DNA from: Novosphingobium sp.
GTDB lineage: Bacteria; Pseudomonadota; Alphaproteobacteria; Sphingomonadales; Sphingomonadaceae
Length of the DNA stretch: 64,000 nt
Reading direction: 5' to 3'
Assembly (NCBI GenBank): GCA_024236215.1
Contig: JACKKX010000004.1
Location: 62,001-126,000, forward strand
The stretch's first letter is position 1. Each line of letters starts with the position of its first letter. Positions 7,987-13,353 of this stretch are shown piece after piece. Position numbers and translations under genes: made by a program. The notes below the pieces were generated by a model. The model saw only the letters and a list, made by a program, of their open reading frames with translations. It searched no databases and had not been told where the DNA came from.

Positions 7987-9021
7987 ATGGGACGCAAGCG
8001 CTCGAACAAGCCGACCAGCTTCGATATCGCCTATATCGCGGGGGTCTCGCAGCCCACGGTCAGCCGTGCGCTGCGCGGCTCGCGGTCGGTCAGTCTGGCT
8101 ACCCGCCAGCGGATCGAGGCAATCGCGCGCGAGCTCAACTACTCGGTCGACAAGAATGCCTCGTCGCTCCGCTCGCAGCGGTCCAACACCATCGCGCTGC
8201 TGTTCTTCGAGGAACCCGGGCCCGAGGAAAGCGCGATCAACCCGTTCTTTCTTGCCATGCTTGGATCGATCACCCGTTCCTGCGCCAGCCGCGGGCTCGA
8301 TCTGCTGATCTCGTTCCAGAAGATGGAGGATGATTGGCATGTGCGCTATCAGGACAGCCACCGCGCCGATGGGCTGATCCTGCTCGGCTATGGCGATTAC
8401 ACGCTTTACGAACGCCGCCTGACCGATCTGGTTGAGCATGGCACCCATTTCGTACGCTGGGGTTCGGTCGGGGCGAACAACATCGGATCGACCGTCGGTT
8501 CAGACAACTTCGGGGCCGGTCAAACGGCTGGCGAGCACCTTCTTGGCCTTGGGCGCAAGCGGATTGCCTTCCTTGGCCAGGCCGATGAACACTACCCCGA
8601 GTTCGCCGATCGCTATCGCGGGCTGTGCGCCGCCCTGGCGCAGGCGGGCATTTCTCCCCAACCCTCCCTACAGTGCGATGCGCTGAATTTCGAGGAAGCA
8701 GGCTCCGAAGCAGTCAGGGCGCTGCTTGAAACAGGGATCGAATTCGATTCGATCTTTGCGGCGAGCGATCTGATCGCGATCGGCGCGCTGCGGGCACTGG
8801 CCGCAGCGGGTCTGCGGGTTCCCGAGGACGTCGCCATTGTCGGGTTCGACAACCAGCCGGCCGCAAGCATGACCAACCCGCCGCTCACCACGCTGATGCA
8901 GGATCTCAAGGCGGGGGGCGAACTGCTGGTCGAAACCCTGCTCGCCCAGATCGAGGATCGGCCGCTCGATAACCGCACCATCCCGGCGCAACTGATCGCG
9001 CGCCGCTCAACCCTGGGTTGA
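7987..9021 (+). CDS. LacI-family transcriptional regulator
   Basis: A 344-aa regulator with an N-terminal helix-turn-helix (IAYIAGVSQPTVSRALRG, residues 14-31), the hinge segment ELNYSVDKNASSLRSQRS, and a periplasmic-binding-protein-like effector domain reaching the end. It includes the late conserved DVAIVGFDN and the final LIARRS typical of the family. The ATG at 7987 follows the purine-rich AGAGGGACAGGGTGG. It is divergent from the maltodextrin receptor and followed by a sugar transporter, so it most likely represses this locus until a sugar effector binds. Two near-identical palindromic sites at 7903-7916 and 9027-9040 are its likely operators. An open frame extends far upstream through the receptor gene, but protein homology begins only at the chosen Met. 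Confidence 0.92.
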   Translation: MGRKRSNKPTSFDIAYIAGVSQPTVSRALRGSRSVSLATRQRIEAIARELNYSVDKNASSLRSQRSNTIALLFFEEPGPEESAINPFFLAMLGSITRSCASRGLDLLISFQKMEDDWHVRYQDSHRADGLILLGYGDYTLYERRLTDLVEHGTHFVRWGSVGANNIGSTVGSDNFGAGQTAGEHLLGLGRKRIAFLGQADEHYPEFADRYRGLCAALAQAGISPQPSLQCDALNFEEAGSEAVRALLETGIEFDSIFAASDLIAIGALRALAAAGLRVPEDVAIVGFDNQPAASMTNPPLTTLMQDLKAGGELLVETLLAQIEDRPLDNRTIPAQLIARRSTLG

Positions 9022-9026
9022 GCTAT

Positions 9027-9040
9027 GTATTCGTATGCCT
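9027..9040 (-). promoter_or_regulatory. Probable LacI-family operator upstream of the transporter
   Basis: Read on the minus strand this is AGGCATACGAATAC, differing at one base of 14 from the site at 7903-7916. It starts six bases after the lacI stop and lies 62 bases before the transporter start. This suggests the MFS gene has its own regulated promoter rather than relying only on read-through from lacI. Confidence 0.58.
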
Positions 9041-9102
9041 GTTGTCGCGGAAGCGCGGGCGTGCCAGCCATGACGCCGGGATAGGGGAAGGATTGCACCG
9101 CA

Positions 9103-10596
9103 ATGGCAAAACCGCGCCAGGGCTGGGCCGGGCTGTTCAACATCAGCTTCGGCTTCTTCGGAATTCAGATCGGCTTCGCATTGCAAAATGCCAACATGAG
9201 CCGGGTGTTCCAGTCGCTTGGATCGAGCCTCGACGATCTTCCGGCCCTGTGGATTGCCGCTCCGCTGACGGGCCTGCTGGTTCAGCCGGTGATCGGCCAT
9301 CTCAGCGACCGGACCTGGCTTGGCCGGATGGGGCGACGGCGGCCCTATTTTCTGGCCGGCGCCGTACTCGCCGCGCTGGCGCTGGTCCTGATGCCGCTTT
9401 CCGGAGCGCTGCTCATGGCGGCCACCCTGCTGTGGATGCTCGATGCCAGCCTTAACGTATCGATGGAGCCGTTCCGCGCCTTTGTTGGTGACATGCTCGA
9501 CAAGGACCAGCACACCGCGGGCTATGCCGTTCAGACCGCCTTTATCGGCGCCGGGGCGGTGGCGGGATCGCTGTTCCCCTGGCTGCTCGACCATTTCGGC
9601 GTCGCCAATCAGGTCGTGGGTGGCGGGATTCCGGATACGGTGCGCTATTCGTTCTGGGCGGGGGGTATCGCGCTGTTCCTCGCGGTGCTGTGGACGGTGC
9701 TGACCACCCGCGAATATTCGCCGCAGGAACTGGCCGGTTATGGCGAGCAGGCAGTGCAGGATACGTCGGCCGATACTGCCGCTCTGGCGGCGCGTAGCAT
9801 GGTGGCGCCGCTGCGCTGGGTGGCGGCAGGGCTGCTGCTCGCCTTCTTCACCAGTGAGCGCGGCCTCGAAAAGGAGGTCTATCTGCTCGCGGCGCTGCTG
9901 TGCGGTTACGGTCTGGTCAGCCTGGCCGCGATCGCGCTGGCCCGGGCCGGGCGCCCGGCTTCGATGCTAACCAGCATCGTCGGCGATTTTTCCGGCATGC
10001 CCGAGATCATGAAACGCCTGGCGCTGGTGCAGTTCTTCAGCTGGTCTGCCCTGTTCATCATGTGGATCAACACCACCCCGGTGGTTGCCCAGGAGTTCTT
10101 CGCTTCACCCGATCCGGCGAGCGCCGGCTATCAGGACGGCGGCAATTGGGTAGGGGTGCTGTTTTCGGTCTACAATGGCGTTGCCGCGATCGCGGCGCTG
10201 GCGCTGCTGCCCTGGCTATCGCGGCGGCTGGGCAAGGCGCGCACCCATATGGTCTGTCTGCTTGCCGGTGCGGCGGGCTATGCCAGCTTCTTCCTCATCA
10301 CCGATCCGCAGTGGCTGCTGCTTAGCGAGGTGGGCATCGGCATCGCATGGGCCTCGATCCTGGCCATGCCCTATGCGATCCTTGCCAGCAGCCTGCCACA
10401 ATCCAAGCTTGGCATAACCATGGGCCTGTTCAACGTCTTCATCGTTGTGCCGCAACTACTGGTGGCGACTGCGATGGGTTCGATCATGAAAGCCTGGTTC
10501 CCGGGCGAGCCGATCTGGACCATGGCCTTTGCCGCAGGAACCTTGGTGATCGCCGCGCTGGCCATGCTGCGGGTTGAGGTACCGGGCGAGGCCTAG
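9103..10596 (+). CDS. MFS sugar transporter, maltose/sucrose type
   Basis: A 497-aa inner-membrane permease with about twelve hydrophobic segments. The motif SDRTWLGRMGRRRPYF (residues 68-83) matches the loop 2-3 signature of the sugar:cation symporters related to sucrose carriers and to Caulobacter MalY. In this locus it would carry the maltose or maltodextrin that the TonB receptor brings into the periplasm. The ATG at 9103 follows GGGGAAGGA. An operator-like site lies 62 bases upstream. The stop codon TAG at 10594-10596 is formed by a TA dinucleotide plus the first base of a MITE-like element. If that element were cleanly removed, the stop would still be TAG, so the protein is probably intact. 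Confidence 0.9.
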   Translation: MAKPRQGWAGLFNISFGFFGIQIGFALQNANMSRVFQSLGSSLDDLPALWIAAPLTGLLVQPVIGHLSDRTWLGRMGRRRPYFLAGAVLAALALVLMPLSGALLMAATLLWMLDASLNVSMEPFRAFVGDMLDKDQHTAGYAVQTAFIGAGAVAGSLFPWLLDHFGVANQVVGGGIPDTVRYSFWAGGIALFLAVLWTVLTTREYSPQELAGYGEQAVQDTSADTAALAARSMVAPLRWVAAGLLLAFFTSERGLEKEVYLLAALLCGYGLVSLAAIALARAGRPASMLTSIVGDFSGMPEIMKRLALVQFFSWSALFIMWINTTPVVAQEFFASPDPASAGYQDGGNWVGVLFSVYNGVAAIAALALLPWLSRRLGKARTHMVCLLAGAAGYASFFLITDPQWLLLSEVGIGIAWASILAMPYAILASSLPQSKLGITMGLFNVFIVVPQLLVATAMGSIMKAWFPGEPIWTMAFAAGTLVIAALAMLRVEVPGEA

Positions 10597-10864
10597 AGCC
10601 TGTTCTGGTTAGGTGGAAGCACCGTCATCGCGTCAGGAAGGCCGCTGGATAGGAGTGGCGTGTAGCAGGGGCTGGTTGCCCCTGCAAATCGACACGACGC
10701 AGCCAGCGGCCTTCCTGACGCGACCCCGCAGGGGCGGGCCATTTTTGGCCCATCGCAGCGTTGCTCGTCGGTCACTATGCGATGGCATGGCTCTCTCCTC
10801 GCGCCTCGCGCTGGGCCAAAAATGGCTCCGTGCCGGTGCATCCACCTAACCAGGACAGGCTCTA
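10594..10864. mobile_element. MITE-like palindromic element with 31-bp terminal inverted repeats
   Basis: The outer arms 10594-10624 and 10834-10864 are inverted copies with 29 of 31 bases identical. The element proper (10596-10862, 267 bp, ends GAGCC and GGCTC) is bounded by TA on both sides, as expected of a TA target duplication. Inside are a perfect 20-bp inverted repeat (10629-10648 with 10703-10722) that contains a 7-bp hairpin (10665-10671 with 10679-10685). A second pair (14 bp, 10738-10751 with 10813-10826) contains a 7-bp stem (10751-10757 with 10778-10784). No transposase is present. It lies between two convergent genes. Removing one copy plus one TA would leave those genes one base apart with both stops intact. 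It could be a non-autonomous derivative of an IS630- or IS5-type element. Confidence 0.75.
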
Positions 10865-10866
10865 GC

Positions 10867-13353
10867 CTACCACTTGAACCGCACCGTCGCTCCATAGGTG
10901 CGCGGCTGGTTGGTGTAGCCCGAGATCGAGCTTGGCTGGGCAACCGAATCGAACACGGTGATGATCGTACGGTCGTTCAGCAGGTTGCGCCCCCAGAGCG
11001 ACATTTCGAGCCCCCCCGCTAGGCCATAGGTGATCGAGGCGCCCAGATCGTCGGCATCGCGGCGGAACGGGCGCGCGGCATCGAAGGCGGGCTGGTAGCT
11101 CACGACATTGCCCGCTGCATCGCGCTGGATAAAGCCGGGCAGGCCATCGACCACCTGGGTCGCGCTTTCATAGTGAAAATCGCTGCGCAGCGTCAGGCGA
11201 TCGCCGTTGCCGAACTTGTGGCTCCACTGTGCCCCGAAGGTGGCGGAAAGCGAGGGGATCCCGGCGGGTCGCCTGCCGGTCAGATCGCCCAGCGGCGAAT
11301 TGGGAAAGCTGTCATATTTGGGATCGAGCACCACCAGCGAAAGGCTCAGCGTCAGATTGGCATGCGGGCGCACCTGTCCATCGAACTCGGCACCGCGGAT
11401 CGATTGGCGCCCGGCGTTGGCCAGGGCAAAACCGGTGCCGGTGAACACGTTCGACTGGAACCCGTCGATGGTCTGCTTGAACAGGGTCAAATTGGCGCTG
11501 GCAACGCCCCAGTCGCCCTTGATGCCCAGTTCCCAGACCTTGGCATCCTCCGGGCCGGCAAAGCGCGATCCGGTGGAGAGGTTCGGCACCAGGAGGCCCG
11601 CCGTACCCAGCGCCGCATAGTCCGCCGCGAGCGGACGGCTATCGCGCGAGAGGTTGAACGAGCTGGCCTTGAACCCGGTGGCATAGCTGAGATAGGCGCG
11701 CACCTTGGGCGAGAGATCGATCGCAAGCCGCGCGTTCCACGACCAGTCGCCATCGCGGGTCTTGCCGCTTTCCACCGCGTTGGGAAAGTTGAGGAATGGC
11801 GGCAGGAACTGAAACGGCCTCAGCGCCGAGGCGCCATAGTTCGACAGGACCAGTGCCGAGAAGGTATCGGTGCTGACGGTGTTGGAACTGACATCCTTGG
11901 CATCGCGGGTGTAGTTCCCGCCCAGCGTCACCGTCACCCCTGGCCGGACCTTGTAATCGACATTGCCGAACACCGACCAGGCAGCGTTGCTCATCGCGAA
12001 GCGATCGGTGAGCCCTTGCCCGGCGGCAAAGAAACGGCCGGTGTTCGATCCGTAGAGCGCGGTTTCAAGCGTGGTGATCCCGCCGACCGAAAGCAGATCG
12101 GCATAGGCACGGAACTGCGATCCATAGGTCAGCACATTCTCGCTGCTGACGTTTTCGTGGAAGTAGAATGCGCCCAGCATGGCGTTGAACACGTCGAGGA
12201 AACCCACCGAGGCGCGCAGTTCCTGGGTGAAGGTGGAAATGTCCGTATCGCCCCGGTTCTGCCCGATCAGGTTCGCGCTGGTGAAGTCCGAATCCTGATT
12301 GGTCAGGCTGTGGCTTTCGCGCCAGGCGGTGATCGAGGTGACCTTGAGCGGCCCCACCTGGTAATCGGCCTGGGCCGAGAGACCCCAGTTTTCGATCTTG
12401 TTGCTTGACGCAAGGTTCGACCAGGTAACGTCGGCAAAGGGCGTGGACGCCGCGTTGACGTGGCCTCCCAGCGCCTCGATCGCCGAGGTTGCGCTCGATC
12501 GGCGCAGGTTGACCACCGCGCAGCAATCCTCGTCGATCCGGTCATAGTCGGCGATCAGGCGGACCGAGAACACATCGCCGGGGGCGAATTTCAGCTGCCC
12601 GCGCGCGAACCAGCGATCGCGCTCGTTGGCTTTCTCGCCGGTGCCAAGATCGCGGACATAGCCATCGCGGCGGTTAATCCCGGCTGCAAGGCTCGCGGCG
12701 ATGTTCTTACTCACCGGCCCGGTAACATAGCCCTTGACCACCGTAGCGCCAAGATTGCCGTAACTGCCCTCGAGCGACCCATGAAAACGGAACGACGGCT
12801 CACGCGTGACGATCGAAATCACCCCGGCGCTGGCGTTCTTGCCGAACAGCGTCGATTGCGGCCCGCGCAGCACCTCGACCCGCAGCGCATCGGGCAGATC
12901 GCCGATCTGGGCAGCGGCGCGGCTGCGATAGACCCCGTCGACGAACACCCCCACCGAGGGCTCGATCCCGGCGTTGTTGGCCCCGTTGCCAAAACCGCGG
13001 ATGATGAAGTTGGTCTGGGCGGAGCTTTGCTGCTGCGTAACCCTGAGCGCAGGGACCAGCATTTGGAGATCCTTGAGGTCGCGCACCTGGGTGCGTTCAA
13101 GCGCCTCGCCGCTGGCAACCGAAACCGCAACCGGCACGTCCTTCAGCGTCTGCTCGCGCTTGGTTGCGGTGACCACGATCACCGCATCGTCATCGGCCGG
13201 GGTGAAATCGTCGGCCGGGGGCGCGGCTTCCTCCTCGGCTGCTGCCGCCTCCTCGTAGTATTCTTCTTCGGCAGGCGCGCTTTCCTGAGCCTGCGCTGCG
13301 GCTGGCAGGGCAATCGAAACGAGCAGGGCGGCGCGCAAATGCTTGGTCATCAT
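10867..13353 (-). CDS. TonB-dependent receptor, second of the locus
   Basis: Outer-membrane receptor of 828 aa. A signal peptide (cleavage near AQA, about residue 23) is followed by an unusually acidic stretch at residues 27-57 rich in Glu, Asp, Ala and Pro. The TonB box VIVVTATKREQTL comes next, then the plug domain with FIIRGFGNG and EVLRGPQSTLFGKNASAG. It ends in RFKW with an aromatic terminus. This is a different subfamily from the receptor at 5077 and resembles the large general receptor group of sphingomonads, whose members take siderophores, polyphenols or sugars. The substrate cannot be assigned from sequence. It converges with the sugar transporter across the MITE-like element and diverges from typA. 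No copy of the LacI operator motif was seen upstream. ATG codons at 13353 and 13350 are both possible starts. Confidence 0.9.
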   Translation of the reverse strand: MMTKHLRAALLVSIALPAAAQAQESAPAEEEYYEEAAAAEEEAAPPADDFTPADDDAVIVVTATKREQTLKDVPVAVSVASGEALERTQVRDLKDLQMLVPALRVTQQQSSAQTNFIIRGFGNGANNAGIEPSVGVFVDGVYRSRAAAQIGDLPDALRVEVLRGPQSTLFGKNASAGVISIVTREPSFRFHGSLEGSYGNLGATVVKGYVTGPVSKNIAASLAAGINRRDGYVRDLGTGEKANERDRWFARGQLKFAPGDVFSVRLIADYDRIDEDCCAVVNLRRSSATSAIEALGGHVNAASTPFADVTWSNLASSNKIENWGLSAQADYQVGPLKVTSITAWRESHSLTNQDSDFTSANLIGQNRGDTDISTFTQELRASVGFLDVFNAMLGAFYFHENVSSENVLTYGSQFRAYADLLSVGGITTLETALYGSNTGRFFAAGQGLTDRFAMSNAAWSVFGNVDYKVRPGVTVTLGGNYTRDAKDVSSNTVSTDTFSALVLSNYGASALRPFQFLPPFLNFPNAVESGKTRDGDWSWNARLAIDLSPKVRAYLSYATGFKASSFNLSRDSRPLAADYAALGTAGLLVPNLSTGSRFAGPEDAKVWELGIKGDWGVASANLTLFKQTIDGFQSNVFTGTGFALANAGRQSIRGAEFDGQVRPHANLTLSLSLVVLDPKYDSFPNSPLGDLTGRRPAGIPSLSATFGAQWSHKFGNGDRLTLRSDFHYESATQVVDGLPGFIQRDAAGNVVSYQPAFDAARPFRRDADDLGASITYGLAGGLEMSLWGRNLLNDRTIITVFDSVAQPSSISGYTNQPRTYGATVRFKW

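Follow-up and report, generated by a model that had tools for sequence, protein, structure and literature searches.

The window, the whole 64,000-nucleotide stretch of Novosphingobium sp. DNA that we analysed, contains a pair of convergent genes with a compact repeat element between them: an MFS transporter gene at 9103–10596 on the plus strand and a TonB-dependent receptor gene at 10867–13353 on the minus strand. The element itself occupies 10596–10862 (267 bp; called plus, the orientation of our alignment A1) and is flanked by a duplicated TA target, the left TA at 10594–10595 and the right one, as read in the sequence, at 10863–10864. The left TA doubles as bases 1 and 2 of the MFS stop codon, TAG (10594–10596), which is completed by the first base of the element, a G, while the stop codon of the receptor (10867–10869) lies 2 bases beyond the right TA. 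Excising 10596–10862 together with one TA leaves TAG, one base and CTA, exactly as the initial annotation of this DNA had claimed.

The element is built of nested palindromes, all placed on the plus strand. The left terminal arm (10596–10627) has its inverted partner in the right terminal arm (10831–10862); taken over 35 nt (10593–10627 with 10831–10865), the inverted arms are 91% complementary. Enclosed by them are hairpin 1 (10628–10723), with arms at 10628–10648 and 10703–10723 (100% complementarity over 21 nt) around an inner hairpin at 10655–10695; a small CCCC-GCA-GGGG hairpin (10724–10734); and hairpin 2 (10738–10826), with arms at 10738–10756 and 10808–10826 (95% over 19 nt), which holds the most conserved inner sequence. 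The predicted fold is a closed four-way junction of the terminal stem, the two long hairpins and the small one. As RNA, the plus strand is predicted to fold at −190.4 kcal/mol (z −15.3) and the minus strand at −180 kcal/mol (z −13.6), and the plus strand as DNA at −111.7 (z −14.4), with 0 of 200 shuffles as good in each case. These results confirm the terminal inverted repeats, the flanking TA and the nested palindromes that had been described before.

We found no transposase gene within the element, in agreement with the earlier description; a mechanical 116-aa minus-strand ORF (10593–10943) spans it. In hairpin 2, a AGGAGAGAGCC-ATG stretch looks like a ribosome site and start codon, yet in other copies a stop follows soon after this ATG, so the stretch is probably no gene. 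A search of 9000–12500 against Rfam gave no match at or above the gathering score, the best candidate reaching 24.2 bits against the 100 needed, and we therefore rejected a known Rfam RNA.

Several copies are present in the window's own genome, which rules out a single-copy conserved feature. A second full copy (C1:615652–615924) matches at 96%, a third full copy, more diverged and bearing different ends, lies at C1:1010099–1010364, and a half copy is found at a contig end (C2:1–141). There is also a remnant, C2:351746–351772, which consists of little beyond one end, has a TA on either side and directly follows a stop codon. Using the window copy as query, 14 of 61 related genomes (own genome included) show a match, and using the copy of a genus-mate, at least 72 of 195 Novosphingobium genomes do; in this 195-genome search no more than three candidates were scored per genome, so the counts are lower bounds. 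Dispersed copies in the host genome and its relatives are what the initial annotation had proposed to look for. Shortened forms also occur, of 187 bp (L319:1501–1687) and 200 bp (L322:1501–1700), in which one hairpin or part of one is lost, as does a 53-bp form consisting of ends only (G147:C191:32040–32092).

The taxonomic range is wider than first supposed. A scan of named genomes with a core pattern returned, among the matches listed, Novosphingobium, Sphingomonas, Sphingobium, Sphingopyxis, Erythrobacter, Porphyrobacter and others. Also among the matches listed were four contigs of Bacillus sp. 2B10 (L175, L181, L186 and L224), a record that may carry a wrong label or include sphingomonad DNA, and a contig titled Candidatus Eremiobacterota (L210), which is possibly a binning error. 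With a covariance model, the element was found in 29 of 147 genomes and 19 of 56 genera at the level of the order, and in 12 of 142 genomes at the level of the class, namely the window's own genome plus one genome from each of 11 other families. It is important to note that the reverse complement of a true copy scores 110.9 bits with this model; scores of about 110 bits are thus no proof of homology, and for this reason a sequence-only profile was run. With this profile, 20 of 24 distant loci reach an E value of 1e-3 or better, and all nine class-level loci tested, which cover 9 of the 11 other-family genomes, are supported (best E 1.7e-20, weakest 7.1e-4). The previous attribution of the repeat to sphingomonads is therefore too narrow, given that the covariance model reaches 11 other families of the class.

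The model also located the element on plasmids of Novosphingobium sp. RL4 (L418:2502–2767), Sphingopyxis indica (L424:2502–2767) and Sphingopyxis alaskensis (L431:4382–4643), so plasmids can ferry the element between hosts. Plasmid searches with the whole element as query, and others with class-level copies as queries, gave no match, and a pattern scan of viral contigs gave 0 matches with a pattern that recovers only 51 of the 115 copies known to us.

We delimited 115 copies, with a typical length of about 267 bp. A TA is present on both sides of 66 of them, on one side of 36 and on neither side of 13, counts that are inflated because the boundary finder scored TA and GAGC favourably. In 65 of the 115, the arms pair perfectly over their first 22 bases. 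To the delimited copies of the site sample (113) we added 29 from named loci, giving 142 copies of which a few are orthologous and so not independent. TA stands on both sides in 81 of the 142, and 77 of these 81 lie in a YTAR context, compared with 9.2% of 4346 background TA. CTAG is the preferred target of IS630 elements, and is the commonest YTAR site here (27 copies).

A simple codon-based gene caller was applied to the 127 copies with enough flanking sequence, 15 being dropped. In 60 of the 127 a boundary TA belongs to a stop codon, and in 10 this holds on both sides. The neighbouring genes are convergent for 48 copies, tandem for 63 and divergent for 16, against 46 convergent among 294 control gaps; between tandem genes the element occurs in both orientations (23 and 40 copies). 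Non-coding control YTAR sites fall in stop codons in 73 of 467 cases, as opposed to 47 of 75 two-TA copies (73 control sites in stops, 394 intergenic, with a further 179 coding). A preference for the target alone is thus insufficient to explain the excess at stop codons, to which either counter-selection at other sites or some additional preference must contribute. Since each end of the element starts with G, a copy that enters a TAA or TAG stop at its TA restores a TAG on either strand, and the proteins survive.

The best empty site is that of copy L076 in genome G147 (in AACGC-TA). In genome G191 (L342) the flanks of this copy meet at a single CTAG, at which two convergent stop codons overlap; the computed gap is −2, or one TA. 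The same gap of −2 is seen at this site in L358, and likewise in L341 by extension of a partial match. For copies L029 and L026, too, relatives show an empty counterpart with a gap of −2, but they read TG or GA at the site and not TA. Dispersed copies and empty sites with target duplication, as expected of a MITE (miniature inverted-repeat transposable element), were therefore found, the latter through these sister copies. For the window copy itself no empty site was found, as the same TonB-dependent receptor lies beside the MFS gene in 0 of the 29 other MFS loci fetched. In one of these 29 (L271), the 60 bases past the MFS stop resemble the beginning of a further element whose ends differ. 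Taken together, the dispersed copies in the own genome, the TA flanks of most copies and the empty sites of sister copies uphold the initial annotation's reading of a mobile, non-autonomous repeat.

A bacterial MITE is commonly regarded as the remains of a single insertion sequence, to which its fixed ends still tie it. This family has variable ends and a constant inner part, the reverse of the usual MITE. Among the 101 copies of 262–270 bp there are 77 distinct left arms, and over positions 5–22 the two arms of one element are 96.9% identical while arms of different elements are 44.0% identical, so that the terminal repeats are not conserved across copies; many inner positions, on the other hand, are at least 90% conserved. 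Core identity and end identity correlate at only 0.25, and among pairs of copies with a core identity of at least 0.88, the ends are at most 60% identical in 30 of 140. The clearest case comes from a single genome, G147, in which L049 and L077 have cores at 0.975 identity and ends at 0.465. Judged by these comparisons, ends and core behave as separate modules.

The stems of the element change in a compensatory manner. We tested covariation against one fixed structure of 104 pairs, taken from a member of the alignment. Pairing cells make up 93.6% (76.2% shuffled), changes on both sides affect 80 of the 104 pairs (1735 cells, 447.5 shuffled), and the covariation score is 0.479, compared with 0.146 shuffled and at most 0.084 slid. 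Given that the structure came from an alignment member and that related sequences are non-independent, part of this excess is expected, but its size is not. Compensatory change beyond chance, as a structured RNA should show, is thus present. The earlier suggestion of a structured RNA is in this respect strongly supported as to structure; the acting molecule may be either RNA or DNA.

Could the element be kept for the host mainly as a structured RNA, or as a structured 3′ end of mRNAs, and spread only secondarily? Its stems would then covary because a transcript must fold, and its inner parts would bind protein or RNA. The strong covariation and the conservation of the inner sequence agree with such a role, as does the retention of one orthologous copy, with concerted changes, in six fetched loci (below). 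So does hairpin 1, which on the plus strand prefers G-U over A-C (222 against 31 cells; 23 against 5 columns, p 0.0009). However, the terminal stem has no strand preference (47 G-U and 49 A-C cells; 11 and 8 columns, p 0.65), and the hairpin 2 stem leans the opposite way, albeit not significantly (7 G-U and 68 A-C cells; 3 and 8 columns, p 0.23), meaning that no single strand accounts for every stem. Furthermore, compensatory changes in the terminal stem comprise more transversions than transitions (510 against 367 cells), which is not expected from a route through wobble pairs, the element stands in both orientations between tandem genes, and no Rfam family matches at its gathering score. We consider it unlikely that service to the host as an RNA is the primary role.

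Six of the fetched loci (L015, with the element at 1461–1727, L116, L121, L122, L136 and L137) share an orthologous copy, located between wecB- and wecC-like genes, as read by eye, with flanks that are 76–100% identical. In L015 the downstream ORF (161–1477, minus) has its mechanical start codon within the terminal arm of the element. The terminal and hairpin 1 stems of L015 and L121 differ at 13 pairs in which both partners changed and remained complementary, as opposed to two single changes and one further double change; for L015 and L136 the tally is 13 double and five single changes. Paired double changes at an orthologous site mean that both arms changed jointly without any need for transposition. 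About half of the double changes are transversions (7/15, 7/18 and 9/16), which argues for arm-to-arm copying or strong selection over the wobble route. Gene conversion from another copy could also underlie the paired changes at this site.

These observations bear on the possibility that we are dealing with an ordinary MITE of a single insertion sequence family, whose ends have drifted and whose compensatory pattern reflects many recent bursts from founders with matched ends. Such an origin would fit the TA duplication, the empty sites and the short, gene-less, multi-copy form of the element, and some of its ends do match those of insertion sequences. It is contradicted by the joint change of both arms in place, by the near-identical cores with unrelated ends in G147, and by the resemblance of the ends to those of two different transposase families, described next, and we regard it as quite improbable. 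That the element is instead a fixed, immobile feature of convergent genes, serving as a bidirectional terminator or to stabilise their mRNAs, would suit the very stable fold and the share of convergent sites (48 of 127 copies, 46 of 294 control gaps), but is weakened by the dispersed copies and empty sites, by the 16 copies between divergent and 63 between tandem genes, and by a scan that gave just one weak terminator-like site inside the element, on the plus strand only (0.4 expected). The scan does not bear out the terminator function mentioned in the initial annotation, and we hold this last explanation to be very unlikely indeed.

We did find insertion sequences with related ends. The end of L317, GGGCCTGTTGACATTCATC, is shared by an IS5-family element in Azospirillum that is 847 bp long and TA-flanked (L423; 22/26 and 19/26), and similar ends are also carried by similar IS5-family elements in Roseomonas and Paracoccus. 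The IS5-family elements found are 838–854 bp long and TA-flanked, and four of them (L423, L421, L420 and L422) cover two end types. The ends of the third copy in the window's own genome resemble, as a weaker match, those of an IS5-family element of Rhizobium etli (L422; 19/26 and 15/26). A second family is represented by GAGCGGTTTCCACCC, the end of the G179 and G215 copies, whose counterpart is an IS630-family element of 1052 bp in Sphingobium yanoikuyae (L426; 23/26 and 18/26); the first 13 bases are identical at both ends, where the median against all arms is 9/22.

For the window copy's own ends, no insertion sequence was found, the plasmid search included. Plasmid searches with three other end types, taken singly, yielded no recognisable insertion sequence end, and for two further end types the matches examined (L428, L429 and L430) included no clear insertion sequence. 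For one end type, every same-contig inverted pair in 194 genus genomes spans 53–299 bp; thus there is no autonomous element with those ends among them. Searches of the own genome for DDE_3 (IS630) and Y1 gave no match, and G179, with three copies bearing IS630-like ends, gave no DDE_3 match either. Across the genus genomes, DDE_3 and the element do not co-occur (p 0.88), and we rejected IS630 as the sole source on this ground and on the lack of a DDE_3 match in the own genome. Y1 genes co-occur weakly with the element (33 of 72 carriers, 29 of 122 others; odds 2.7, p 0.002, kinship uncorrected). The co-occurrence table totals 194 genomes and the element list comes from the 195-genome set, with at least one positive (G110) outside the 194. 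The IS630- or IS5-like descent that had been suggested is hence supported for other end types, by related ends on elements of both families, but not for the ends of the window copy, nor by the DDE_3 search of its genome.

A literature search gave no description recognisable as this element family. The TA-flanked bacterial MITEs RUP, Correia/NEMIS and ERIC are likewise small and gene-less, with terminal TA, inverted repeats and a stable RNA fold, and IS630-Spn1 is considered to mobilise RUP (PMC2229807, PMC3049150). They are described as roughly 100–200 bp long, as opposed to about 267 bp here, and differ from the present family in its hypervariable self-matched ends, its conserved core and its several end types matching two insertion sequence families. 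The Caulobacter and Brucella intergenic repeats (CIR) share with it the Alphaproteobacteria, the intergenic position, two hairpin arms and terminal TA (PMC2229807); they are about 110 bp long, are without a closing terminal stem and carry GANTC, whereas our element is about 267 bp long and has a terminal stem. We rejected identity with CIR on length and because GANTC occurs in only 15 of 113 elements. The BOX elements of pneumococcus are also modular and tightly folded, with terminal repeats that pair (PMC3049150), and are reported to encode the gene's stop codon in 36 of 58 overlaps (PMC3049150). Our likening is by description; here the stop codon comes from the TA target and the element's first G, in either orientation. 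The IS5-family IS427-group and the IS630 family share the ends of some end types, and the IS5-family elements also the TA flanks, but they encode a transposase, which our element does not, and its conserved inner part is unrelated to them. For IS427-group elements of Paracoccus, of 832–865 bp, 2-bp duplications are listed for most (PMC3281130). REP/BIME repeats with their RAYT transposases are palindromic and intergenic too, and Y1 genes co-occur weakly here, yet our element is longer, TA-flanked and closed by a terminal stem; its own genome has no Y1 match, and fewer than half of the carriers (the 33 of 72 above) have a Y1 transposase. In part, then, the phenomenon is known already, from RUP with IS630-Spn1 and from BOX, which often supplies stop codons (PMC2229807, PMC3049150). 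Our analysis adds a range that spans the class, ends that are hypervariable and yet match each other, a folded core that stays conserved, stems that change in place, and the exchange of modules.

Our preferred reading is that the element is probably a trans-mobilised, non-autonomous foldback element of Alphaproteobacteria with swappable ends, which inserts at YTAR and duplicates TA. IS5- and IS630-family transposases of the matching insertion sequences would move it in trans, and its ends would be re-adapted or swapped to suit whichever TA-specific transposase is around. The terminal arms may stay matched partly by copying between the arms of the palindrome in place, as the concerted change at one orthologous site suggests, and the G at both ends would spare the proteins by rebuilding TAG at TAA and TAG stops. 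A bolder version, which we offer tentatively and think more doubtful than the reading just given, is that what truly replicates is the folded core with its conserved sequence. The ends would change to borrow IS5 and IS630 transposases, the palindromes would let both ends mutate jointly by arm copying, and it would be the fold, rather than the end sequence, that is recognised by transposition or by the host.

The combination of variable ends, a constant folded core and some end types that match two transposase families makes it testable how non-autonomous elements outlive their founding transposase. The preference for YTAR, together with a G at both ends, offers a simple account of life in the stop codons of dense genomes. 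As the family is not in Rfam, the annotation of many Alphaproteobacteria would benefit from its inclusion.
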